Assembly (NCBI RefSeq): GCF_043290135.1
Contig: NC_134710.1
Coordinates: 8,386,821-8,450,820, forward strand
Length of the DNA: 64,000 bases
Origin: Rhipicephalus microplus
Lineage: Eukaryota; Arthropoda; Arachnida; Ixodida; Ixodidae
Direction: 5' to 3'
Made by a program: the position numbers and the translations under genes. Below are positions 4,692-50,677 of the stretch, one piece after another (position 1 is the stretch's first letter; each line of letters starts with the position of its first letter). The notes beneath the pieces are model-generated. The model searched no databases. It saw only the letters and a program-made list of their open reading frames with translations, and had not been told where the DNA came from.

Positions 4692-5230
4692 AACCGCAGC
4701 GAAGACGCGATGTTGCCTCACCAGATAAGGCACAGTTGGCACTGAACAGCGCACATTGATTTTATCTGCTGGCTGCGGTATAGAATCGAACACAGCTGGA
4801 AAGTATGAGTCTTTTGTTGGCTCGTACTTTTCTTCTAAGTGCAGCCTCACTTTTGTAAGCAAGGGTCCTTGCACACACAGCAAGTATCCATGAAAGCTCT
4901 TGCAAAAGCAACAGTCAGGAAAAAAGCGTGGCGTTTCAGTTAAACGCTTTATAAGGCATGCAAACACTCGCCGTCGTCTGATAGCTCCTAATAGTTTTTT
5001 TTTTTTTTTCACCGTGTTGAACTTTTTTTGCCATGCTCAACTTGTGCATGATCATGTAGAAAAATGAAATGTTTTTGCAGGACCGGCTGGATGCATCATG
5101 CGAGATTTTTTTTTACACTGCCAGAAACGCTTTCTGAATATTCTTAGTGGCAGTAAAATGTTCAAAATGCGGCGTCGTGACATGCACAATATATAAACGT
5201 TCAGGGAATGTAGCCCCATTCGAAACATTC
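4692..5230. other. No recognised gene
   Basis: A 109-codon minus-strand frame (4683-5012) starts at the inverted exon copy but matches nothing I know. T-rich runs lie at 4995-5010 and 5107-5114. Confidence 0.4.
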
Positions 5231-5231
5231 A

Positions 5232-5395
5232 AATTTTTACTTTGGGGTTTAACATCCTGAAACCACCATATGATTATGAGAAACGCCATAGTAAAGGGCG
5301 TCAAGAATTTTGATCACCTGGGCCCGGGTTCTTTATCGTTCACATAAATCTCGGCACACGGGCTTCAAGCATATTTGCTTCCGTCTTGGCGTCGC
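5232..5395 (-). repeat. tRNA-derived SINE fragment (Ruka-type), 5'-truncated
   Basis: The minus strand reads the body and tail of the same SINE seen at 10,136 and 21,113: the blocks around GCCCGTGTG, TAAAGAACCC, TCATAATCATATGGTGGTTT and GTTAAACCCCAAA. The tRNA head is lost. Many substitutions indicate an old copy. Confidence 0.65.
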
Positions 5396-5970
5396 CATTG
5401 CTATGCAAACTATTTGCAAAAAAAATAAAAAAGATGGAGTTGGGCGTTGTCAGAGTGGATGGACGCCAAGGGGCAGTGACGTCGAGGACTGCTGAGTTGT
5501 GTCGTGGGAATGAAAGGCAGAATTATCTTAGCAAGCTAGACTCTGAGAGGTATCCTGAAAGCACTTCTTTGCTACGGCTTTTGTGTGTAGTAGTTGCTTA
5601 TTTTGAATGCTTTGCCAATGTTGTGTGTATCTTGCATATAGGCTCTGCTGGAAGTGCAGATTCTGAAAAAAAAAAATTTTTAATATTTGTTAACAGGGTT
5701 TGTGTACAACTTCAGCCGTCAAGTGTACTTGCCTTCTTTGAGGCTGAAAAGGCAGAAGACAAGCCCACTTGACAGCTTCAGCCGCACACAACCCCATTTA
5801 CGGTTTTTTCCCCTTCCTCTTGTGGTTTTTTTATTTTACTTTTGGATTGCCAGCCTTTGAAGTCATTCATCATGACTTCGCACAGGAAGGCATGAATGCA
5901 ATCAAGTTGTAGTACTGTGAAAACCCAGAAATACGCTTGGCAGTATAGTTGAGGTTTGTTTTCTTTGCAG
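5396..5970. other. No recognised gene; plus-strand open frame of unclear status
   Basis: A 128-codon open frame (5386-5772) overlaps here, but it has no recognisable domain and includes an A-rich tract. It could hold an upstream exon of the candidate at 5971, but nothing proves that. Confidence 0.3.
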
Positions 5971-19364: not shown

Positions 19365-20168
19365 AAAAAAAATCAAGCATGTAGGAAAAATTGTTTTGTA
19401 AAGGACTGACGTTTCGGCCGCGGGACCGGCCTTCGTCAGAGTGATGTGAACATGCGACGGTAACGCAATATAAAAAAGCCAGTAACGTATCATAGCGCTG
19501 TTAATGGCTGACAAGCGGTTGTTAAAAGTACGTGGGAAACAGTGCAGTGCGCGTGATAAGACAAGAAAAAAATGAGACTACAAGCGTGCGAAGACGAAAC
19601 GAATAAAAAATCATTAACAATGAGTAAAAAATTATGAAGCCACATAACGTGTGTATCACTGGCACAAACATCAATACACGTCATAGGTACAACTGCGAGC
19701 GAGTTATCGATAAACATAAACGCGGGTATAACATCTTGTCATGATCCGACAACAAAGCTGAAACAGGGATCATGACAGCTGTTGTCGGATCATGACAAGA
19801 TGTTATACCCGCGTTTATGTTTATCGATAACTTGCTCGCAGTTGTACCTATGACGTGTATTGATGTTTGTGCCAGTGATACACACGTTATGTGGCTTCAT
19901 AATTTTTTACTCATTGTTAATAATTTTTTATTCGTTTCGTCTTCGCACGCTTGTAATCTCATTTTTTTCTTGTCTTATCACGCGCACTGTTTCCCACGTA
20001 CTTTTAACAACCGCTTGTCAGCCATTAACAGCGCTATGATACGTTACTGGCCTTTTTATATTGCGTTACCGTCGCATGTTCACATCACTCCGACAAAGGC
20101 CGGTCCCGCGGCCGAAACGTCAGTCCTTTACAAAACAATTTTTCCTACGTGCTTGATTTTTTTTTTTT
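19365..20168. mobile_element. 800 bp near-perfect inverted repeat (Penelope fold-back)
   Basis: Arms of about 390 bp (19365-19753 and 19780-20168) are almost exact reverse complements around a 26 bp spacer. Each arm contains the block GAAACGTCAGTCCTTTACA with the GGCCGGTCCCGCGGCCG motif. (TG)n(TA)n lies outside the left arm and (AT)n outside the right. The two open frames seen here (75 and 135 codons) are the same sequence read on opposite strands and are not genes. The adjacent Penelope endonuclease suggests these are its inverted terminal repeats. Confidence 0.8.
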
Positions 20169-29901: not shown

Positions 29902-30816
29902 GGGTAGAGAAGTTGATGGTAAATACGGCGGGTTGTTTCTTTAAGGTAGCTGGCTTCTCGCCGTCGTCCACATAGCCGATCTTCGCCAGTGAGAAGATGC
30001 GTTAAGGAGAGGTAGAACGAACGATTTATTTTATTTACATTATTGAAGAAGGAAAGGAACTGTACAGGGATCCAAAAGACCCCTCACTATGTACAAGAGA
30101 GGTTCAGCTCGCGCTTCCGTACAAATTCCGCACATGATGCAGCTCGAGATTCGGCACAACATTCAGCTCAATTTACAAAGATGCTTCGGCTTTTATAGCC
30201 CACCGTCACCGCCGTCCGAAGGAGGCGCTGATCACTCTTGCCACACAGCAGGGGACGAAGTCTTAGTGGTCCACCCACCAGAAAGGGTGCATATATTGCA
30301 CCACTCAGCTGGGCGTACAGTCCAATGGTAACAGGAACGCACCACACAAACGGGCACCTGGCCCACGCCTTGAAGGCACCGCAGGGCGAGGAGGTGGAGC
30401 CCGGAGAGGGAAAGTTGAGCTCCTCTGGGGAGATGGCCGCTAACTCGACCGTCAGCAGCGGTCCACGCTCCTTTCAGCTTCAGGCAGGCCCAACGCTCGA
30501 TTCCGTTGAACAGCTTTTTCGACGTGTTACCACGCTTCCGGGCTGTCGGTACGCTGAGATAGCCTCGCGTAGATGACAAAAGTTGAGTCTTAAGGAGGCC
30601 CGCCACAGTGGTGCCGTTCCCCCGCAGTACCAGCCCGTTCAACAAAATGCTTGCCTCGCGAAGCTTTCGTTGAGACCCGACTGCTTCCCGGAAAGTCTAC
30701 CGGACAGCGTCCTGCAGAATAGGCGCCGATAGGGTTGAAAGTCTCCCCAGTAGACCGGCTTACGCACAATGGCGTCTGCCCAGACGAATTGCTGGACCAA
30801 ACCTAACAGCTCCTCC
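29902..30816 (-). repeat. Left copy of the 0.9 kb direct repeat (candidate 3' LTR)
   Basis: Collinear with 34545-35523 at high identity. It lacks the 44 bp insertion of the right copy. Confidence 0.7.
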
Positions 30817-34544: not shown

Positions 34545-35523
34545 AGGGTAGAGAAGTTGATGGTAAGTACGGCGGGTTTTTTCCTTAAGGTAGCTAGCTT
34601 CCCGCCGTCGTCCACATAGTCGATCTTCGCCAGTGAGGAGACGCGTTAAGGAGAGGTAGAACGAACGATTTATTTACATTGTTGAAGAAGGAAAGGAGCT
34701 ATACAGGGATCCAAAAGAACCCTCTTTATGTACAACAGAGGTTCAGCTCATGCTTCCGTACAAGATTCCGAACATGATGCAGCTAGAGATTCAGCACAAG
34801 ATTCAGGTCAATTTACAAAAATGCTTCGGCTTTTATAGCCTATAGTCACCGCCGTCCGAAGGAGGCGCTGATCACTCATGCCACACAGCAGGGGACGAAG
34901 TCTTAGTGGTCCACCCACCATTCGAAAAGGTGCATATATTGCACCACTCGGCTGGGCGAAACTGTCTAATGGTAACAGGAACGCACCTCACAAACAGGCA
35001 CCTGGCCCACGCCTTGAAGGCACCGCAGGGCGAGGAGGTGGAGCCCGGAGAGGGAAAGTTTAGCTCCTCCGGGGATTGGATTGGATAAACTTTTATTTTT
35101 TATTGGATATGTTTTATTTCCTCCGGGGAGATGGCCGCTAACTCGAACGTCAGCAGCGGTCCACGCTCCTTTCAGCTTCAGGCAGTCCCAACGCTCGATT
35201 CCGGTGAACGACTTCTTTGACGCGTTCCCACGCTTCCAGGCTGTGGGTGCGCTGAGATGGCCTCGTGTAGATGACAAAAGCCGAGTCTTAAGGAGGCCCG
35301 CCACAGTGGCGCCGTTCCCCCCCCCCCCTCCCCCCCGCAGTACGAGCCCGTCCAACAAAAGGCTTGCCTCGCGAAGCTTTCGTTGAGACCCGACTGCTTC
35401 CCGGAACGTCTACCCGACAGCGTCTTGCAGAATGGGCGCCGATGGGGTTGAAAGTCTCCCCAGTAGATCGGCTTAGGCACAATGGCGTCTGCCCAGACGA
35501 ATTGCCGGGCCAAACGTAACAAC
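34545..35523 (-). repeat. Right copy of the 0.9 kb direct repeat (candidate 5' LTR)
   Basis: Carries an extra 44 bp (35076-35119) flanked by CCTCCGGGGA on both sides, and an expanded C tract at 35318-35337. Confidence 0.7.
35076..35119 (-). mobile_element. 44 bp retroelement 3'-tail insertion with 10 bp target duplication
   Basis: Inserted in the right LTR-like repeat and absent from the left copy. Flanked by CCTCCGGGGA (35066-35075, 35120-35129). The minus strand has AATAAAA motifs and ends in CCAATCCAAT, consistent with a heavily 5'-truncated non-LTR insertion. Confidence 0.6.
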
Positions 35524-36650: not shown

Positions 36651-36779
36651 CAAATATGCCACGTAAAATGAAACGAGACGTGAATATATTGTTTAGTGTA
36701 TTAGCACCATTCAAGATGGAGCACAGCATGCACGGCGGGCAATTCCAGTCCACTTCTTCGATCATTGTCATCTTCTGAT

Positions 36780-37677
36780 CGCTATGTCAGCTACGTAGCA
36801 ATATTAATGAAGTGTTGCAAAGTCGTTATTCTGATCCAACTGTGCAGGGAGATGCTGGAACGCCCGCATGAGTGGTGTCTCGGGCTCAACAAAACCAAAG
36901 CAAGAGCACGGCTTCTTATGTATTGGCCCAGCATGCACAAACAGATTCAAGAGCTACGTGCGAAGTGCAGCACGTGTTGCCAGTTTGCTTATCACCACCC
37001 GTAGGAGCCTGTAATCAACAGCCCTGTCCAAATCTTTTCATGGGAAATAGTCGGAATGGATTTGTGCCAACATTCGTAAGCTAGCTTCGTACTTGGTAGT
37101 GTACTACAATGCATATTCTAATTATCCGGAAGTGTAGCGCCTGGCGCAGACTTCGAGCAAAAGCGTGACCAGAAAAGTTGAGATTATATTTGCAAGGTAC
37201 TGCATCTAGCTGGAGATATACTCCCACGGGGGTCCGCAATTCACCTCCCGCGCTTTTCGCAATTTCGCGCAAGTGTGTGACATGTTATTTCCCGTCCCAG
37301 GTTCCCGAGAGCGAATGGTCTGGCCGAAAAAATTAGTGTACATGGTCAAACGCCCCCTGAAGAAAACTATGCACGCCAGGGAGCCGTTCTGGGTGGTTCT
37401 CCCTAAGTATCGTCTTTCGCCCCTGAAGGCCAGCCAAAGCCTGACTGAGATGTTGATGGGGAGGTGGCTACGCGGACGCCTACCAGATCTCGCTGTTCAA
37501 CCTGCAGCAGATGTAAAGAAGCACATGCAGAAACCCAGAACTGGCACCTCGCTCCCAGTTTTGTACAGAAGAGACACCGTGCGGATTTTGGATGACTCCG
37601 GGTGGACTGTCAAACCACCATAGAGGACCACGTCGATGCCTACTCTTACGTGCTCTGGACCGAAGAGGGACGCACCC
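36780..37677 (+). pseudogene. Gypsy integrase fragment, insertion target of the Harbinger element
   Basis: Plus-strand pieces carry the integrase zinc-finger end (LLMYWPSMHKQIQELRAKC then STC), the core start (WEIVGMDL), RFPRANGLAEK near the catalytic Glu, and a C-terminal domain (KKHMQKPRTGTSLPVLYRR). Many stops and shifts make it a decayed copy. The frame stops at 37,677 because Harbinger is inserted there, and resumes at 50,647. Confidence 0.8.
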
Positions 37678-37680
37678 TAA

Positions 37681-37724
37681 AGCGCGAGACAGACGTGCGA
37701 TTTTCTCTGCGATGCGACGTGCGG
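37681..37724 (+). repeat. Left terminal inverted repeat of the Harbinger element
   Basis: Begins AGCGCGAGACAGACGTGCGA. Followed by GC-rich subterminal words of TGCGRCG type (to about 37,760). Confidence 0.9.
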
Positions 37725-37804
37725 CGTCGCATGGTGCGGCGTGCCGCATGCGACGTTTTGAGACACATGGAGCAAAAACTGCCGGTTGGCCGGAAAGTTG
37801 AGGT

Positions 37805-37832
37805 ACAGTGTACTAGAATTCTAGTACACTGT
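37805..37832. repeat. 28 bp perfect palindrome with flanking 9 bp direct repeats
   Basis: ACAGTGTACTAGAA joins its exact complement around GAATTC. AAGTTGAGG stands on both sides (37795-37803 and 37833-37841), as if a tiny mobile palindrome had duplicated its target. Confidence 0.8.
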
Positions 37833-38110
37833 AAGTTGAGGCTCCGCCTTTCGCAGCGTTGCCTGACCAGCAATGTGTTTACAAAAGAAAAAGCACGTAA
37901 AAGTCCTCTCTTTCTCAACTTTAACATAACGAAATATAAAACAAAACTTAGAAAATTTAGTTACTGCAATCTATTTCGAGAAACGTAGTGAGTTTGTATA
38001 CGCACGTCTGTGTGACTACCACTCAGTTTAGAAGGAGTCGCTTCAAGATGTTGGCAACAGTGGCAGCAGTCAGCGTTGTGTCGTGTTTGATTAAAACACG
38101 TGATTAGAAC

Positions 38111-38689
38111 CATGACCTACTACACTCCTGACCTGTTCAGATAGCGGGGTTCCTATGGGAGCGCGTGTCCCCGCTCTCGTTCAATCGCTCGCCGTAGGTG
38201 GCGCTACCTATAACCTGTTCGTCTGCTTCTTTACGGTTGTTTTGTAGGCGCTGGTATAAGAATGCCTGCTTTCTGTGGTGAACTGTCGGCATATATGTGA
38301 CTATTTCTTCCCATACATTGCTGGTCAAGTAAGCTGTTCAGTGCGCTTAAGAATTTATAGCACACTGGTTGACAAACGTGGAAACCCGTGGATTTACATG
38401 ATTTTGGACAGCCTATGCGTTGTCGCGTGCATTTTATTGCAAAAAAAATTCTGAATGTCTTTTAGTATTATTATTTCTGGATATTTCTAAATTGTGGATC
38501 ATAAATTCGCACTACGAGTGCTTTGTTGGTTAAAATTTGACTACAAAGAGTGAAGGTGACGTCAGCGAACAGGTGCTGCCTAGCGCCACGCCGCTCGTAG
38601 GTGACGGCCCTAGCGGCAGAAGGTATGAACTAGAACGTGGGCGCTGGAAGAGGTGCTCTCTGGGCAGGTCAGGAGTGTAGTAGGTCATG
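38111..38689. mobile_element. 579 bp MITE with perfect 25 bp inverted repeats and 8 bp target duplication
   Basis: The ends read CATGACCTACTACACTCCTG and mirror each other for 25 bases without mismatch. ATTAGAAC flanks it (38103-38110 and 38690-38697). No coding capacity. An 8 bp duplication is typical of hAT and P elements; the CATGA start recalls P. It lies between the left Harbinger end and the first transposase exon. Confidence 0.85.
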
Positions 38690-41600
38690 ATTAGAACTTC
38701 CTCCGTGGATTAGAAAGACCTTTCACTCTAGTTCGGCTGCCTGTTATTGTTGTTCGCGGGTCGCCGACATGATAATGACTAAGCGCCGAAAGCGACTGCT
38801 TCTGTTAAAGAAGAAGGTCCTTTTGGCCCAAGTGATGCTGGAGGATCAACGCCAGCGGAGGTGGTGGGTGCGCCCGTCATGGCGAACGCGGCACGCCGAG
38901 AGTGAATTCTTCACCACGGTACGTATACCAGTTATCGCATTACCGCCAATAAATTACATTGCTAGTTGCGCACGCATTAAAACATTTCGCTGCGCGTTAA
39001 AATGAAGCATAATACTAACTCAAGATGGTTCCTCGTCAGAGCATTAAATGTGCATTGCGATTCTATATTTTCTAAGAAACCGTTGTTTGAAAACGTTCTC
39101 GTCTCGTTTGTTTATGTGATTTTAACGTTCTTCAAAAGTAAGTTGATCATCGACAGTGCGGGCGAGCTGTCAATTAAAAAGAGTTCGCGACGACAAAGGA
39201 CACACGGCAGCACCTCACTCCGCGTGGACCAATCAATAATTGTGACTGCCTGGTTATCAGGCTGGTTCGCGCCTCCCCCCCCCCCCCCTTTTTTTTTTCA
39301 TATTAGTGCACAGCCGTCCTGTGCTCAATACACTGCTTGCTCCGATAAAAATAAATATTTCATGCGTACCTTAATTCCATAAACTTTCATCCTAAAAGTG
39401 AACCACTTCTTTCATTATTCAGATTGGCACAAATCCATTTCACCTTGCATGGAAGTCGTATTCTGCCGGCCACATTTTGTTGAGGGCAATTTCGGGCAAT
39501 CAGTGCACAACTACTTCTTTTTATTTACTTAAAGTTATTCGATTGTGCTTGTGACTGCCAGAGATATGATTTCTAATTTGGTCATCTGAGACTGACTCTG
39601 GAACATATTGAAGTAATCTCCTTGGCCTGTATGGAGCAATACACATGCAATATACGCGACACATATTTCTAGAAGTGTTGAGCTATGGATATGCTGCTCG
39701 CTTAGGTGCCAGTCAACATAAATCTGCATAGTTGTTTTGTGACCTTTGCTGGGAAAGAAAAAAAAAAGCGAAATTATTGTTTCTATTTCAGATGAAAAAA
39801 ATGCATGCTGGGGACCTAGAATACTTCAAAAAGTACTATCGCATGTCCCCATCACAATTTGACTATATCCTCAGTTTGGTCAAGGAAGACTTGGAGAGAG
39901 AGACCTTCATCGGAGAGCCCATATCTTCAGCAGAGCGACTTGCTATGACCCTGAGGTAATACAATTTGCCTGGAACCTTGTGGCAGTACACTTGTATTTT
40001 AAATGTTTGTTTAATGCATGATGAATATTTTTAATGCCAAATGTACTATAGGATTACATGCATAATACACATTTGTAGTGCATTACTTCACCTACTTAGT
40101 AAATACTGTGATTGTTTCTCATGTAAACTTGCTCATAATATTATATCAAGTATGGCGATTCAGTTTGCTTTGTCAGCACCTGTCTATGTTACCCATGGCC
40201 AATTGAACTGGCGTATATTGCGACACCCATGCACAGCAATGGACAATGTGTCATGCATAGGGTACTAAACGGGCGCATGCACGAGGAGACAACACGGCAG
40301 CGGTAGGCGACGGAGTCGGTAGGTACCCGGGCATGTCGGTGGCGCATTTTGGAAGTGACGAAGGAGAAATCTTACAATGTGTCCTGCAGTTCATTCCCGA
40401 TTTGATTGTGCAGCATCACCTTGATTTCAGCTGCATGTGGCCATTGTGTTTGAAGATATGTAAGCTGTAGGCACTCGAACTTTCTGAAAAAACTAGCTAG
40501 CTGATGTGGCTAGGAGTTCCTCAAACCAGTTGGCAGTAACGAAGTCGTGGCAGGACAATGGATAATGTTTTCAAACAAAGGCACAACAGTTTTGTAAGCG
40601 TAATCTATGAGTTGCAGAATTTTTACACCTCTATTGAAAGTATTGCGTTGTGTTGATATATATTATGATTACGTACAAAATTGCTTTGCCTACACAGCTA
40701 TGCACTTCAACTTCAATTTGCATAATTTATGCTACTTTTTAGTGATGACAATATGACAAGAGAAATTGCTTGCCAATATTTCCAAAAATATCTATTGTAG
40801 TTAATCTCTTTTACCACATTTGTCAGTACCTCACATGGTCATTGGGCTAATTGGATGTGCGCACATAAAAACATTGCTGCAGAATAGAATGTGGAGGGCA
40901 CATTAGTTGTTTAAGGAGTACTTCATCAATGGCAAGTTTTGAGTGTTGTACGACTTCCTGTTATTACAGAGCTTTAGTGCCATGGCCCCTAAAGTACTTG
41001 CATACACAAGCTCATTTTGTTACTTGTTTTGTTTCTTTTTTTTTCTTTTATGTGGCCGTTGGAACAAATTTTTTCTTTTATGTGACTGTTGAACAGATAG
41101 AAGAAAGGACCTGTGCAATACGATGCTCAAACAAATATCCAGTGGCTAGAGACCCTTGGAACTAAAGGTTTCTGTTCTCGTGCAACTTTTGTGCCTGTAA
41201 TACACCTAAGGACGACATGTAATAGCTATACAGAATATCCATACTTGGTTCGAGTTGCAATTGAATTTTGTTATGGCAATATAAAATCTTTATATGGCTA
41301 TGCAATGGCTGACTAGAAACCAACTAAATTTAAATGCAGGTATCTGTCCTCAGGAGCCCTCATGCAAGACATTGCCCTATCATTTCGTGTGGGCATATCC
41401 ACAGCTCGTGAGGCCGTGCAAGAGACATGTGCGGCACTTTGGTCCAGACTGAAACCACTGTACATGCCTGTAAGTAGACGAACATGTAAAGGTGCGGCTG
41501 AATATTCAAAACTTGTAACTATAGTTTCCTTCCAAAGGCGATCACACACATGCCATCAGTATAATGATTTCCATATCACAGTGTGGTGTGTGGAAGGTAC

Positions 41601-42702
41601 AGTAAGTCATAGAGTCGGAATCATTAACAGATCTCGGTAACTAATGGCCGCACAGCTGCACATTTGTAATGAACTGTGAAATGCACTTGTACATTTTAAC
41701 AAAATTAAATCACCAATTGCTGACGGTCAACTAAATGAAACAGTGCCTCAATGTGGCACCAACACATGCATCAGAAGCACCACCTTTACAGAATCAACTT
41801 GTTGTGACACAACGTGGTCACTTCAGCAATCGCATGTGCAAGTTATGCTTGAAGTTGAGATGTCGCATTTTATGCCATGCCTGCTGTACATGTGTATTCA
41901 CTGTAACCTAGTTGGCTGTGTTTCGTCTCCTCAGTTTTAGTTCCTGTTTCTGGAGCATTATTCGTGCCCTACTTTTCATGAGCATATTCAATTGCAGTAG
42001 TTAATTCTTTCTTCACCCTACTTGTCAGGCTATTTTATTCTTCTTACTGATCTTGTTGACTCGGTAAAGCGATACTAATATGACAATTTTCATTTCTTCT
42101 TTTCTTCAATCAAATGAAAGGCCATTCCCTTGAAGAACCTAAAAATGTTGTGCTAAGTACGAGTGCACTTAGCACTTGATTTGGTTATGTCACTTGTTAA
42201 TGAAAACAGAGGTCAAAACCTTCAAATGCCTTTCTTGAAATCCATTAAATAAATACAAAGATGATGTTGCAGACATGCAAGAAGTATGCTGTGTAGTTAG
42301 CAAAGCATACTGAAAAAAGAATTGTGTGTTCTGGCTATCTATGGCACCCTGTGGCTTGCCAAATGTAGCCAGAAGTAAAAGTCAAGTCCACTTCAACATG
42401 TCCAGCTTTGTACCTTACTTTAAAATGCACACTTCTGCATGCTTCAAGCCATCGTGAGGATTCGTGAGCTGTCTTTAAGAGGAGAGGAATGACCTTTCAT
42501 TGAAATAGGTGCATATGGAAGGTTATTAGTTTGCCAGTGGCCTGAAGGGGTCAGCAGTGCATAGCGGCTCAGGCAAAAACTACAGTTGGCCATGGTACAT
42601 GAAGCTAAGGTGGACAGTTTTTGATGTTTGAGGCTTCTTCTCAGCAATAAAATGAAGCTTTCACTGGCCTAGATATCTCCACTTCCATGGCACTGATCCC
42701 AC

Positions 42703-42960
42703 AATGTTATTCAATTCAATTTTTATTTCATCCCAAGGATGAGGGCAGGCTCGGGAGAAAAGTGACGTTTTGTCACTTGAGGAGAACCCGAACCTCCCTA
42801 ATACATGGAAAGCAACGTGGACATGGGTAAAGAAACTTAGGCCATGAACATATAGGCAATGAACATAGGCCATGAGATGTTTGGCGCAGTACAAGTTGGA
42901 AGATGCACGTACAGTAATGCTATGTACAGTGACTAATATGCGTAAGTAGTTTCTTTTGGC
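42703..42960 (-). repeat. Non-LTR retroelement 3' tail
   Basis: The minus strand ends GAAATAAAAATTGAATTGAA, a short-repeat tail after an AATAAA, inside intron 3 of the transposase. The 5' limit is unclear because the microsatellite follows. Confidence 0.4.
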
Positions 42961-43081
42961 ACAAATTCCGAAGTACAATGCAAAATATGACAGAATACAA
43001 AATACTGTATATATGACAACAATGCTATGCATAGAAATTGTGTGTACACACATACACATAAATATACACACATATATGCAG

Positions 43082-43222
<141 letters not shown>

Positions 43223-44396
43223 TACACATATATATATAGACAGTTCCACGAATGCCTGGACCACCATTTTCTCGATTTTCACGATAAAAGCACTTCCCTA
43301 ATGTCACGTGCACTGCATTTCTCAAGGATTATTTTTGCCTCCAGTGATGATTTATCATTACTGATAAAATCACTGCTTCTTTCATTTTAGGAGCCAAAGA
43401 CGGAGACATGGCTGCATATCGCTGAAGGATTCAGCCGGACATGGCAGTTTCCGAACTGTATTGGGGCTGTTGATGAAAAGCACATACAGATTAAGTGTCC
43501 TCCGAACTCTGGAAGTATGTACTTCAATTATAAGGTTAGTATGTATAATGTTCTGATGCACTCTGCAGACAATTTAATTCTGTTAAAATTGCTGTCTATT
43601 GCGCATGAATTTTATGTGCCGTTGTAAGCACTGAACACATAGTACGTTTCAGTGTGTTGTCTGAATGCTTGCATCAGATGTTTCGATGTGTGGAATATGA
43701 TGCCATGATCTTTACAAAGCACACATGCACGTTGGTTTGTCATACAGTACATCGTACTTGCAGCAAGTATGATAGTATTCTCTAACGCTCTCACGAACTT
43801 TCTTCTGGTAACATGTATTATAACAGGGCACTCTAGGTAATACAATGAGAATATTATTAGGAGTTTGCTCCTACTTTTTTTTTGTCAAGTTTGCTTTGAA
43901 CTGTTACAAAATAATCAAGAAATAATACAATTGGCTTCACACCAAAAATTTTGCTATTCACATAGCTCTACCTATGTCCCTTTCTCTTCTTGAAGCTAGG
44001 ATGGAATGTTGGTGCTTGTGCAGTTATAAATTACATTACAGTTTTCATGCATGCATTGTTAAAAGGTAATCTTGTGTTTGATTAGAAACACTAGATGTGA
44101 ACTCTTATGTTGCAACCCCATTAATTTGGCCTCTCAGCACATCAGCATTCTAAAGCATCTAGAATAATGTTACACAATCCTGTTGTATGCATACTCATTG
44201 CAGGGCACATACTCCATTGTTCTGCTTGTCGTGGTCAACAGCGACTACAAGTTCGTGATCGTCGACGTTGGTGCTTACGGCAAACAGAGTGATGGTGGAG
44301 TCCTAGAACAATCAAAGTTCGGGTGTCGCTTGGAGAATGGAAAGCTTCATATCCCGCGAGACCTGGAACTTCCGAACACGTCCCACTAATAAATTT

Positions 44397-45437
44397 AAAA
44401 TAAAGCATCAAATTTAGAAACACAGTTCGCAAAGGTAAACAAAGTTTTTCTAACGGGCACAGAAGCTGAGAACAGTGGCCGGCAAAAGGTTGTCAGCAAT
44501 AGAGGAACCAAATGCATGAGTGAGTGAGAAACCATACTAAGAAACTGCACCGAGCGCACTGGAGTGGGGACAGTGCATGTCATCAGGTGCTTTCTTCTGC
44601 GTCTTCAAGGGGTAACCATGTACTATGTGGATCAGTTGCTGACAAATGGTGCACCTTGCCCGAGAAACGCACAATCACAAAAAGCACAAACAGGCCCTTC
44701 AATGTGTGATTGTGATCAGGTTGTAGAAGGAGAGTAGAAGTTGTTTTGAGGCCACAGCACTCTGCCCCAATTCGTGTAGGTGTTGATTGGACAGCACTAC
44801 AAGCAGGCAGCGCAATGGCAAGTCAAGGCGAACTCCCTGTATCATGGGCATTTGCTCAGAATAGGACGACCAACAGGAAGGCACTGAAAAGAATGCCCCA
44901 CTACAGCATTCCAAGGCTCTGCTATGTGTTTAATATTGTTTTGTACTGTCATAAATTACTTACTTGTAATAATCAAGCCCATCATTACATTGTTTCCGGC
45001 GGCATCTAAAACTGTTCTTACTAACAACATGCAACACCTGAATATATATGTATGTGTATATATATATATGTGTTTAAATACGGTTATATGCATTTATGTG
45101 TACGTGTATAGGTTATGAAGTAACACTGTATTAGTGATATGTATGTGTTATGTTATAGTCATTTAATCCAATTAGTTATCTCCTGTTTTATCACTTTCAT
45201 GTAAATATCTTGAACTACCACAAGTTTCAATAATAATTTTCATTACGTTCATTTTGTTTTATTCGCTTGCTGTTTTTTCCTTAGTTGCCAATCTTTGTTC
45301 TATATTATTATACATAAATTCACAGGAGGTCCCCCTAACAGTTTTCACTTTGGGACCTCCTTCTGTATTATATCAACTTTTTACTTGCACTGTATTGTAC
45401 TGAATAAACTGACTGGATTCCCAGAAAAAAAAAACAG
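44397..45437 (+). mobile_element. Probable non-LTR retroelement 3' UTR inserted at the end of transposase exon 5
   Basis: It ends ACTGAATAAACTGACTGG followed by CCAG and A10 (45424-45434). A 10 bp-arm hairpin (AGGAGGTCCC...GGGACCTCCT, 45324-45361) precedes the tail. Candidate target duplications CTAATAAATTT (44386-44396) and CTAGTAAATTT (45438-45448) agree at 10 of 11 bases. No coding motif was found inside. Confidence 0.5.
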
Positions 45438-45448
45438 CTAGTAAATTT

Positions 45449-46697
45449 GCCTTGCTTACATGCAGATAAGAAAACAGTTATGTGGTATTACCAATGGATA
45501 AACTGGGAGGTCTTTCTGTGTTTTGAGTTTCACCATACGTGTTCAGCAACATCTTCGTTTAGTGTGTTTAGACTTTTGATAGTGACTGGTTATATTAACC
45601 AAGGTACTGTGGATGATGCTGCTATTGTATAATTAAATTCAATCAAGCACTTCTTGTGTCATATAACTGCAGTGTCCGGCCAGCACAGTACATTGCTCCC
45701 AAAAGCTGTCTCAATTACAATAGTCGCAAAGCAAAGTTAAAAGAACTTGCAAACCTAAAATAATCCTGAACGTTTGTCAAGCCAGAACACACTAAAACAG
45801 GTGCTATATGCTACACTACCACTTGACTATTGCATCTGTACTTCACTATCGCATTTGTAGCTTGTCGTTCCTTGTTTCTTTGTATCTGATCTTCAGGTGC
45901 AATTTTTTTAATGATTATTCCAGAGTATCGGCCCAGTCTCTGCATTAACGATATTTGTGCCCTGGCTAATAATGCGGTTTGTGTTAAGTCGTAGCAGATG
46001 ACATGGTTCAACTCTACACTCTTTAAGCGTCTGCACATGCACGAGCTGCTGCCGGTGCACGATTGCAGCGCTAGTCGCATCACGATGCGAGGTGCTCCGA
46101 GATATCCCCCAATAGCGAAATGGCCTAATATTCTATAGAACCCCAAGCATTCAGAAAATTGCACATTATGCACCTTGGTGTCGTCCATACGAGAGGGGCA
46201 CTTTTGGTGTAACAACAATGCACTGCAATTAGAAGCATATCCAGCAGAATAGGTCTTGCTTGTCATCAGAGGCAGAATATACGATTCTTTTGAAAGCTTG
46301 CAGTAGTATTTTTTTGAACACCAAGCCTCTGTGAGGCCACGTGGCCTTTAGCTCTTGCGCCACTTTCTGAAAAATAAAAGATAATAAACTCTGTAAAACT
46401 TAAATAAGTGTAAAAAAACAATAGTTGTATTGCCTATGCAATAGCTACACGTTCTGGGTGCTACATGGCCAATAGCAATTCACTTGCATAATGGTTCTGC
46501 CTTGATTAAAAAATTTGTATATTGTGCTTCATATGAGAGAAAACTGTACTTCAGCATCAATCGTATACTCTGCCTCTGATGACCTATTTTGTATCACCTC
46601 CCTTTCACGAAGTACTAGGGCTCAAGTGCTGCTTAGGCCCCAAACTTTTCATGAAGACAAAACAAACTTTACGCAATCGGGAAAAAAATCAAAAAAT
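45449..46697. other. Region between the two Harbinger genes, no recognised gene
   Basis: A 151-codon minus-strand frame (45811-46266) has no recognisable domain. I searched both strands by eye for the missing DEAF-type transposase exon and did not see it. Confidence 0.4.
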
Positions 46698-46726
46698 TTT
46701 ATTTACAATACTTCTGGCAACACTCA

Positions 46727-49700
46727 TTACTGTTGGCTTGCTTCAGCCGGCCCTTGGATCGTCAACAATACAGTCGGCACTTGTCCTACTTCATAGTGCA
46801 TTAGCACTTCAAGTAGGTGCATTTTGCATTGCCCCCTCAGGTGTTCAGGCACCTTGTCCATGTGCTCCGCCAGCGAAAGTAAAAATTGCTCTGTTCTGTT
46901 TTCTTTCTCGTTTTTCTATTCCTCATCAACTTTATCCAGCAAGCTGGCTGCTTGTTTTCTTTTGTTTGTTTTCTTTGTGTTGTGCGTCACGTGTGACATA
47001 GTGGGATGGGCGTTAAAGAGGTAGACAGGACAGGTGTTGAGGTGGACGGTTGTGTGGAAAGGGTGGAAAGAAGGGGAGCAGAAATAGGTCGAAAGAAAAA
47101 GTTACTGTTATCTAAAGTGGGAGAAGCGGGTATGGTGTGGTCTGGTGTGTCAGAGCAATAATTACTTTCGCTCTGAGCACTGGCACACCGAGGGGGCAGC
47201 ATTGATGCAAACACCACTGCTGCATTGTCGGTGGCATCTCCGCTCTCTTCGTCCAGGTTACTGCTTGTTCTATGAGAAAAACAAGCAGCTACATAATTAG
47301 TGCCATGAAGAATACAGCAGTAACAAATAGATTTCTTTGAATGCATGTACTAGCTACTATGCATTATTGCACCGAAAATAAGCATCTAGCTGCTCTAGCA
47401 ATCTCTATGTTGCCAGTCTGAGATAGTTGGGGTTACATTACGATTTTGCGTAATGGAGAATGTGTACTTGATGTAAAAATAACAACCTGCAAATTAACAA
47501 TATTAAGACCAAATTTGTCGTCTTTTCCTCATATCAGCATTGTCTCTACAGCATTTGTAGGTCTGGAACTTGATCACCATCTACATCTCTCCAACATGAA
47601 AAAGAAAATGGCCTAAAGTGTACACACTCTCAACAAAGCTCAACTGCATTTCTTCTTCTCTACTCTCATATCACTATTATGCTTTTGTTCATTCCCTTCT
47701 TAGCTACAACATTGAACAGTGGGGGCAACATGTACAATAGCCACCTTACAAGCGCAGAAGGTACCATTTCAGCCGATGTCTAGAGCACCTCCTGTATATT
47801 CTTACTATTTACTTATTCCTTTGTTTGATTTGAAATAAATGATTATAGTGACTACTAGCAGCAGTAGCAGTCATCACTGGTGGCGTTGCCGAAACACAGA
47901 CCTCTTCTGCTTTCACAGGGGGGGCAAGGGCTCAAGTTTCGCCACTCATCTCTATGCTGGCATGCTCCGTCGAAGTGGATGGATGGATTGATGTGGCTCT
48001 ACCCTTTAGGTCGGGCGGCAGCTAACGCCACCTAGCCGTAATACTTAGTGAACAAACAACTACATTTATCTTTTTGTCCCTCCAAATAGTGAAGTATAGG
48101 GCTGGTACTTTGCAGTGAATGGCTTAATTTTCACTCGTGCCTTGACTTTAGCCACCAATCAGATAACCTCCTTCTAGTTAATTCTACCCGCTTAAAGTCT
48201 ATTTTGCCCTCCCTGTCTCTAAACCCCAGTGCTTTGAAAAACTCTGCGCCATTATCCTGAACTATAGATTGAAGCCCTTCACAGAACATTATCAAGTGTT
48301 CGGCAGTTTCCTCCTTCTCTCCGCATGCACTGCATACCATGTCTACCCCTTCGTATTTGGCCCGATATGTCTTGGTTCGCAATACTCCTGTCTTGGCCTC
48401 AAACAGTAGAGAACTATTCCGAGTATTATCATAGATCCATTCCTTTGCAATTTTGTGCTTAAAAGTTCGATAGATCTCTAGTGCGGACTTCTTAATCATG
48501 CCAATTCTCCACATGTCAGTCTCTGTTTCCTTCACCTTCTTCTTAACCGATGGTTCTTTTTTGTGTGGCCCCCTGCTCTTTTCTAAGTATTTACCAGTCA
48601 ATTTTCTAATTTGCTTCCACCATTTTGTATCGACATCCTTCATGTACAAGTAGCTGAAAACCTTCCTAGCCCAACGCTCCTTCCCCATTTCTCTCAATCG
48701 CTTCTAGTGTGCAGGCCCGAAAGCACCACCTTCCTAATTGCTATTATGCTGCAAACTGTGGTAACAATCTAAACATGAAGAAATCGATTCCACAAGTGAA
48801 ATTCTACCGATTTCCAAATGAATGACAATATCAGATGAATGGTATATGAGGGGAACTTGTTGCTAGTTAGTGAAAATTTAGTTGCAAATTAGTTGAAATA
48901 GTTATACGAAAATACTTCCAAGAAGTGCACCTAATTCTAAGTACATGAGCCTCACTGATACACTTCAAGTGATAATCAGTCCAATGTTGTGTCCTTTTTT
49001 TTTTTTGTATGTGTCAGTGACACTGTAGCCACAACGAAGGGAGCAGTTTGGGTGTCAGGTGTTTCCGCTCAAAGTAAAACATTTTAAAGTGTCAGCTACT
49101 TTCAACGCTTCAACATTTGCTACAAACCACAAACAAAGCTTTGACTTACGGACGTGGCTCGGTGACGTCCTTCAAGAAGAGGAGGAGGTCGAAGAATTTC
49201 CATTTTGGCGCTGCCTCCACCGCCCCGGCTCCGCTCTTTTTCTTCTGCTCTCGTAGTTTCCTGGAGAAGGTGTCCCTTAAATTGTGCCATCTATTATATG
49301 CAAGCTTCACATTTTCTAGAAAGGAAAAGGTAACAAAAACACATTATGCACTATTTCTCCAAACATTTTAAATGAAATATTGGTGACACAAACTGAGAAG
49401 CAAGAAAAAAGAACTCTGAAGGCAAGATGACATGTGACATTCCACGCTTTTTACTGATTGTTCCATCAATGCTTTCGAATTTGCCACTCAGATATCTCAT
49501 AATACTATGCACCAAATCGGCCAACACAATTGCAATTATAATGCTTGCAATGACAAAGTGGGCAATTGTTCACAGTCGAAAAATGTTTCCATGTTTAACC
49601 TTTCAATGCCACAAACATTGCACGAGCTGTGTACTGTGTAACAATTTCGTACTATATGTACATAACTGATGATTGATGTTAAGACAATTTGGTTGACATT

Positions 49701-50331
49701 AAGACTGCAGCAGCTATGTTAGATGACGCATGAAAAGTGTTTGCAAGACTTTCCGTTAGAAGTGTAAAAAGTGGCTTTCATGTGAGGCCCCTTTACTCGA
49801 GGCTACATAGCGGCTTGAGAGGCGCGGGCTCGTTTGCTCGCCACAACACTTCTATGGGGTCATAATATAAGCGCCGGCGTACATTACTTTATGAAAAGAA
49901 GTCATAGGCGCTCAAAATTTGTCATTACGTTCCGTTTCCAATCACTACGCAGTGTAACCCGATGGAATGTCACTTGCTAATTTGAAACAAGTAAACATAG
50001 CTTTCCAGATTTGCCGTACGTCACGTTTCAAGGTTCGCGCCGTGCGAGTCTAAAACTTATGTGTTTTAAACTTTATCTCACGTGAAAAGCTCAGCTGCGT
50101 GCGCAGTTCACACTACAAAAAAGCGCCCGAAAGAAAAAAATATTTGACAATGAAGTACATGTACATACCATCTGTCAAAGCAAGGCATAGCGTGCCGACG
50201 ACTCGTCTGCAGGCATCCGCACGTGCGTCTACATTTCTGTACGTTGCCGAGCGCTGATTCCACAGTGCCGGCTCCTGCCGCACAAGTGAAATTAATAGTT
50301 CAGTGGAAAATCGGGCCGCTTCTGAACTCAT
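46727..50331 (-). pseudogene. MADF-BESS DNA-binding protein, three exons, Harbinger partner gene
   Basis: Exon 1 (50331-50169) starts at an ATG and holds the MADF beginning (FSTELLISLVRQEPALW, RNVDARADACRRVV). Exon 2 (49315-49150) completes MADF (KLAYNRWHNLRDTFSRKL, PKWKFFDLLLFLKDV). Exon 3 (47269-46727) is Ser/Thr/Pro-rich and later reads a BESS-like motif (FLLSLAEHMDKVPEHL, then MHLLEVL). Exons 1-2 and 2-3 join in phase at GT-AG sites. In exon 3 the frame shifts between about 47,000 and 47,045, and a TAG lies at 46916-46918, so the BESS part is cut off unless there is an unseen intron. An AATAAA (minus) lies at 46698-46703. MADF binds DNA and BESS mediates protein contacts; a role in guiding the transposase to the ends is inferred from related elements. 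Confidence 0.82.
47978..48710 (-). pseudogene. Non-LTR retrotransposon C-terminus, 5'-truncated
   Basis: About 188 codons on the minus strand end at 48,131. A Lys-rich region is followed by FEAKTGVLRTKTYRAKYEG, a Cys/His motif (CSACGEKEETAEHLIMFC) and RVELTRRRLSDWW. This C-terminal pattern is very common in tick non-LTR elements (recall). The tail ends in (TGGA)n at 47,978. It lies in intron 2 of the MADF gene, opposite no exon. Confidence 0.65.
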
Positions 50332-50599
50332 GGCTTTGTTGAAATTGCCGGCACCGATGTAGCTACCTTGTCAGCACAAAAATTTGGCAATATGGCAGCT
50401 CCACTAGTTGGTTCACCTGCTTCGTGGCACGTCATCGTGATGTTTCCTTCTTCGCGCTGTGATTGGCTGCTGCAATGCGGCGGTGCAACGCTGCGACAAA
50501 AATATCTGGCCGGTTTGATGCTCGCCGCACCGGATATGCGGCGGTGCGACGCGAGGATACGTCACGAAACGTCACCACTCCGGCAGTCGCATCGTCGCA

Positions 50600-50643
50600 C
50601 CGCACGCCGAATCGCAGAGAAAATAGAACGTCTGTCTCGCGCT
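50600..50643 (-). repeat. Right terminal inverted repeat of the Harbinger element
   Basis: Reverse complement begins AGCGCGAGACAGACGTTCTA. GC-rich TGCGACG-type subterminal repeats extend to about 50,470. Confidence 0.9.
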
Positions 50644-50677
50644 TAAGACGAAACATGCAGCACATCCTCAAAACAAA
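50644..50677 (+). pseudogene. Tail of the same Gypsy integrase, right of the Harbinger insertion
   Basis: After one TAA copy is dropped, the codons here continue the integrase frame from 37,677 (RRNMQHILKTN), as expected for an interrupted gene. Confidence 0.75.

Follow-up and report, generated by a model that had tools for sequence, protein, structure and literature searches.

A PIF/Harbinger transposon copy with convergent transposase and MADF-BESS genes in the tick Rhipicephalus microplus

The element, its ends and its insertion site

Positions 37681-50643 of a 64,000-nucleotide stretch of contig NC_134710.1 of Rhipicephalus microplus (the whole stretch is referred to as the window) are occupied by a copy, ~13 kb long, of a PIF/Harbinger DNA transposon. 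It is bounded by terminal inverted repeats (TIRs) and a TAA target-site duplication (TSD), and carries a spliced transposase gene on the + strand and a spliced MADF-BESS gene on the − strand that converge on one another. An earlier reading made without database searches (the sequence-only reading) had described inverted repeats of ~44 bp, the TAA duplication, the superfamily and the convergent pair of spliced genes, all of which were confirmed by comparison of the ends, by empty insertion sites, and by Pfam matches and exon structure.

The 16-mer AGCGCGAGACAGACGT is present without mismatch at both ends (37681-37696 on the + strand and 50628-50643 on the − strand), consistent with the A or G at which PIF/Harbinger TIRs start. 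Allowing up to 3 mismatches, it occurs nowhere else in the window, and two or more such matches arose in 5 of 100 shuffles. The inverted repeats have a 44 bp core at the left (37681-37724, + strand) and right (50600-50643, − strand) ends, from which similarity extends with gaps to ~84 bp, with a score of 89, whereas none of 300 shuffles exceeded 31. TAA lies directly outside each end on the + strand (37678-37680 and 50644-50646), forming the 3-bp TWA duplication of the superfamily. The two 300-bp ends contain three 8-mers that occur three times, and no 9- or 10-mer that does so. A 30-bp perfect palindrome, TACAGTGTACTAGAATTCTAGTACACTGTA, lies just within the left end at 37804-37833.

Assignment to piggyBac, which duplicates TTAA, was considered and rejected: the left side reads TAAA and the right side TTAA, the empty sites hold a 3-bp TAA, and the transposase is of the DDE_Tnp_4 type. 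Exact matches of AGCGCGAGACAGACGT at six loci in viral contigs (L001-L006) are taken as chance, and a search of phage records with window positions 41000-42000 returned no matches.

The element interrupts a retroelement pol remnant (36705-37680, + strand; Integrase_H2C2, 8.8e-7), which we take to be Ty3/gypsy-like and whose reading resumes at 50647 once the element and one TAA are removed, the joined flanks forming one continuous frame. A genome search with the joined flanks gave 741 candidates, 40 of which were scored; the 40 matches listed comprise the window's own two flanks, six other places that are unbroken across the junction (78-84% identity) and 32 matches to the right side only. Two of the six unbroken places were aligned (L041 and L042), and both have a single TAA exactly at the junction and omit exactly 37681-50643 plus one TAA. 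These empty sites prove the insertion of 37681-50643.

The two genes and their decay

Five exons of the transposase gene remain in the window copy, all on the + strand. Exon 1 (38769-38918) runs from the start codon to a GT donor and is followed by exon 2 (39792-39955) and by exon 3 (41340-41469), which encodes the HTH_Tnp_4 region and was placed by Pfam and tblastn. Exon 4 (43391-43534), placed by Pfam and alignment, carries the first catalytic D in a motif that reads GAVDEKH in the window, as opposed to GAVDGKH in ten aligned relatives, and exon 5 (44204-44386) is cut off after ...LPNTSH. Introns 1-4 have GT-AG edges and compatible phases. The protein combines the helix-turn-helix (HTH) and DDE_Tnp_4 domains of PIF/Harbinger transposases, with Pfam values of 5e-12 for DDE_Tnp_4 and 1.1e-4 for HTH_Tnp_4, the latter under the curated cut-off.

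Searches by tblastn with tick transposases recovered residues to ~256 of 419, and the residues beyond this point have no credible match in the window by the same searches. When the element alone was searched under laxer conditions, the C-terminal part matched at best with an E value of 0.024, over a stretch that contains a stop. A 'CRRRVEV' stretch near 44.7 kb, which weakly resembles the C-terminus of the transposase, was tried as a decayed last exon and found no support in tblastn.

Sister copies of the element elsewhere in the genome account for the missing part. At the position that corresponds to window 44386/44387 (+ strand), L018, L019 and L023 carry ~3 kb of additional sequence, and coding stretches for both a GDEAF segment and an RRCAENAF exon are present in L018-L020 and L023, in altered form in L020 and L023. 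The glutamate of the RRCAENAF exon is presumably the last catalytic residue, in agreement with alignment A1. Because sister copies hold sequence that is missing at 44386/44387, the window copy has, by this comparison, evidently undergone a ~3-kb internal deletion that removed the transposase exons for the GDEAF and AEN segments. Without its C-terminal exons it lacks a complete DDE catalytic set and cannot mobilise itself; it is non-autonomous, which is a trait of this copy and not of the family.

The second gene encodes a MADF protein, the type of Myb/SANT/MADF partner found in PIF/Harbinger elements (MADF, 9.3e-17). On the − strand, its exon 1 (50169-50331) opens with a start codon that lies 312 bp in from the right end and is followed by exon 2 (49150-49315) and exon 3 (46987-47269), which ends in a premature stop. 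The segment that codes for the BESS domain (46736-46930; 0.0011, just under the Pfam cut-off) lies beyond this stop and a frame change, both of which break the gene ahead of BESS. An AATAAA lies near 46.7 kb. The 'complete two-gene architecture' of the sequence-only reading is thus not what the window holds, since the transposase gene lost its 3' part to the deletion and the MADF gene stops before BESS. The homologous protein P0122 (297 aa) is uninterrupted across the MADF and BESS parts and matches at 73% over 90%. NCBI annotates an uncharacterized R. microplus gene, LOC142777420 (203 aa), that is identical across all three exons to the MADF gene as read in the window; this gene model is very probably the window locus and very probably a transposon pseudogene.

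Family copies and MITEs in the R. microplus genome

The R. microplus genome (3.26 Gb) was searched with 120 bp of each end. The left end gave 446 candidates, of which 40 were scored, and at least 41 matches, including the window itself and a second piece beside another listed match; the right end gave 377 candidates, of which 40 were likewise scored, and at least 40 matches, which include the window. Twenty left-end loci were retrieved, at ~10 kb each, and comprise seven long copies, one deletion derivative, eight loci of the type of miniature inverted-repeat transposable elements (MITEs; ~1 kb) and four that have only the left end in common with the window (L017 and L024-L026).

The interior of the window copy is shared by the seven long copies (L016 and L018-L023) at 86-94% weighted identity. 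Two of these were followed to both ends, L020 at 14,557 bp with TAA on either side and L023 at 15,570 bp with TTA on either side, and L015 is a 3,409-bp internal-deletion derivative flanked by TAA on both sides. Transposase sequence past the window breakpoint is seen in six of the seven long copies (L016, L018-L021 and L023). MADF exons are antisense in L036-L038 and adjoin the right end in L037 and L038, the right-end stretches of the two copies with both ends. In L015-L016 and L018-L023, 48 of 52 exon edges (the exon 1 donor, both edges of exons 2-4 and the exon 5 acceptor) keep AG or GT, and the departures are the exon 2 acceptor of L021, both edges of exon 3 in L018 and the exon 5 acceptor of L019. 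PIF/Harbinger elements of this kind form a multicopy family with paired ends. With the window copy, a dead sister of the others, and the seven found among the 20 loci, the long copies number at least eight.

A TWA triplet adjoins the left end in 16 of the 20 loci, where the flanks of L024-L026 are similar to one another and may not be independent. Both ends were seen at 11 loci (the window, L015, L020, L023 and seven MITEs), and the flanking triplet is the same at both ends in six of these. The sequence-only reading had named ends that never occur paired elsewhere, together with homologous loci that contain the 13 kb with no insertion boundary, as the outcome that would count against it; paired ends were found in L020, L023, L015 and the seven MITEs. 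The copies with TWA duplications and common internal genes by which it proposed to confirm a family were found in R. microplus, and no intact copy, from which it would have read the active form, was seen among the seven long ones. Tandem neighbours are present at the left side of L018 and L033, with the right end of one member placed 3 bp ahead of the next left end and one triplet common to both.

The MITE-type loci (L027-L034) confirm the suggestion, also made beforehand, of a tick Harbinger family with MITEs that have the same ends. Seven of the eight have a recognisable right end and measure 834-1,014 bp; the eighth, L028, has no match to the element's last 44 bp and was assigned a length of 1,000 for alignment. 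Pairwise identity among them is 84-94%. In all eight, similarity to the left end of the element covers the first 90-97 bp, and the right-end match spans 148-214 bp in seven and 61 bp in L031. At an E value of 1e-5, the MITE core (~700 bp) matched nothing in the element. The MITEs, on this comparison, have the ends of the element and are no simple internal deletions of the window copy.

Several younger insertions are nested in the window copy. One occupies 38103-38697, with inverted repeats bounding 38111-38689 and the 8-bp direct repeat ATTAGAAC at 38103-38110 and 38690-38697; we take the nested element to be hAT-like, and element positions 413-1028 are absent from L016, L018, L019, L020, L021 and L023 (six of the seven long sister copies). 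A TG/TA microsatellite stretch at 42711-43352 (element positions 5031-5672) is absent at that place from L018-L021 and L023. A LINE-like fragment, of approximate extent and with a weak zf-RVT match under the cut-off, lies in MADF intron 2 at 47976-48703 on the − strand.

Relatives, mechanism and alternatives

The transposase has 237 homologues at E <= 0.001, and the best of the 120 listed are from ticks. Among them, the DDE_Tnp_4 proteins P0001 (Hyalomma asiaticum, 93%) and P0004 (Dermacentor albipictus, 76%) represent the same transposase lineage as the window; P0004 (418 aa) and others differ in that they retain the C-terminal part that the window copy lost. In a FastTree tree of 27 transposases (the window and 26 of the 120 listed), the window groups with R. 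microplus and Hyalomma sequences, and this group adjoins sequences from Dermacentor, R. sanguineus, Ixodes and Ornithodoros. A PDB sequence search with the tick transposase alignment gave no matches. In Dermacentor silvarum, the gene model P0127 combines MADF-BESS exons with a peptide that matches the antisense strand of transposase exon 5 (window 44371-44201, 53%), which suggests the same convergent layout in that species. A second, distant Harbinger-like element (L030:1149-6602) resembles the window family in that its weak MADF match (E 2.4e-4) is convergent to its transposase matches, and differs in its low identity to the tick queries, 32-47% for the transposase pieces and 27% for the MADF piece. 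It lies directly beside a MITE of the window family.

Within the PHIS superfamily, candidate autonomous PIF/Harbinger families average ~4,124 bp (PMC4482050). The tick family agrees with those elements in its TWA duplication, its HTH and DDE transposase and its Myb/SANT-like (MADF) second protein, and its TIR starts with A and has a 44-bp core under 60 bp, as in ~93% there. It differs in that the two measured tick copies are 14.6-15.6 kb long, or 3.5-3.8 times that average, and that the tick transposase is spread over at least six exons with long introns (PMC4482050). Since intron sequence is common to the copies, much of the family's length is native, even though nested insertions vary from copy to copy; this is a Harbinger several times the usual length, much of it intron.

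Positions 37681-50643 almost certainly belong to a cut-and-paste PIF/Harbinger family of R. microplus that has two genes, and of which they are a dead copy. Several observations weigh against this reading. The HTH and BESS matches both fall short of their Pfam cut-offs. Right ends were sought for four of the seven long copies and found in two; the two right-end stretches that yielded no end are L036, which spans the BESS region, and L035, which matched nothing. A left-flank TWA is absent in four of the 20 loci (L018, L021, L026 and L027), and the flanking triplets differ in five of the 11 loci with both ends, all of them MITEs (L027, L029, L030, L031 and L033). Furthermore, none of the seven other long copies is intact, each having a stop, a frame break or both in its transposase as far as retrieved; the sequence obtained for L016, L021 and L022 stops short of the end of that gene, and intact copies could lie outside the 20 loci examined.

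The DDE transposase and the convergently encoded MADF-BESS protein of a working copy would jointly recognise the ends, presumably the ~90 bp at the left and ~200 bp at the right that the MITEs retain, and the two proteins would cut the element out and reinsert it at TWA with duplication of 3 bp. Joint action of this kind, with the MADF protein binding the ends, is inferred from relatives (PMC9710019): rice and zebrafish PIF/Harbinger elements need both proteins, and the Myb-like protein of zebrafish Harbinger3_DR binds the transposase, is required for both proteins to localise to the nucleus and recognises a motif in the subterminal region. The window copy, which has kept both ends, could have been mobilised in trans.

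An extension of this reading, which we consider unlikely, is that the family belongs to an exceptionally long, intron-rich, convergent tick lineage in which transcripts of the MADF gene extend antisense into the transposase gene, possibly damping its expression. The gene model P0127 bears on it and may only be an artefact of prediction.

Domestication, in which the transposase and MADF pair would be kept as host genes of the tick, as in some insects, is a very improbable alternative to a dead transposon. Co-domestication of such pairs is published, and the insect PIF elements and derived genes (PMC9710019) include the same pairing of a transposase with a MADF protein; those pairs are domesticated, whereas the tick case is a convergent transposon copy with TIRs and a TSD. 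The annotation of the MADF part as LOC142777420 would fit a host gene, but TIRs, a TSD and many copies are present, and the truncated transposase and the MADF gene that stops before BESS show decay that fits a dead transposon.

That two separate MITEs flank unrelated genes, the 13 kb not being one element, is scarcely credible. The ends are indeed abundant on their own (446 and 377 first-look candidates), ~1-kb MITEs have the same ends and tandem neighbours exist (L018 and L033), but the empty sites leave out the whole interval together with one TAA, the interior recurs at 86-94% from the left end inward in seven loci and between both ends in two, and the MITE cores do not match the element interior. 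The notion of the window copy as the founder or source of the family and its MITEs, put forward in the sequence-only reading, rests on its two ends and its parts of both genes and is almost certainly wrong, given seven other long copies, six of them with transposase coding sequence that the window lost, and a MITE core of ~700 bp unmatched in its element.

The dead PIF/Harbinger copy is an ordinary member of a well-known superfamily, new at the family level, and opens no long-standing question. Among the titles and abstract openings returned by the searches made of open-licence papers, none dealt with this tick family. For this important tick of livestock, a Harbinger family with two genes is now defined by its empty site, relatives and MITEs, and annotators gain ends and landmarks by which to identify it.

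Elsewhere in the window, an 800-base stretch (19365-20164) matches its own reverse complement at 95%. The intervals 29902-30808 and 34546-35521 carry direct repeats of ~530 bases (91%) and ~400 bases (89%), possibly the long terminal repeats of a retroelement.

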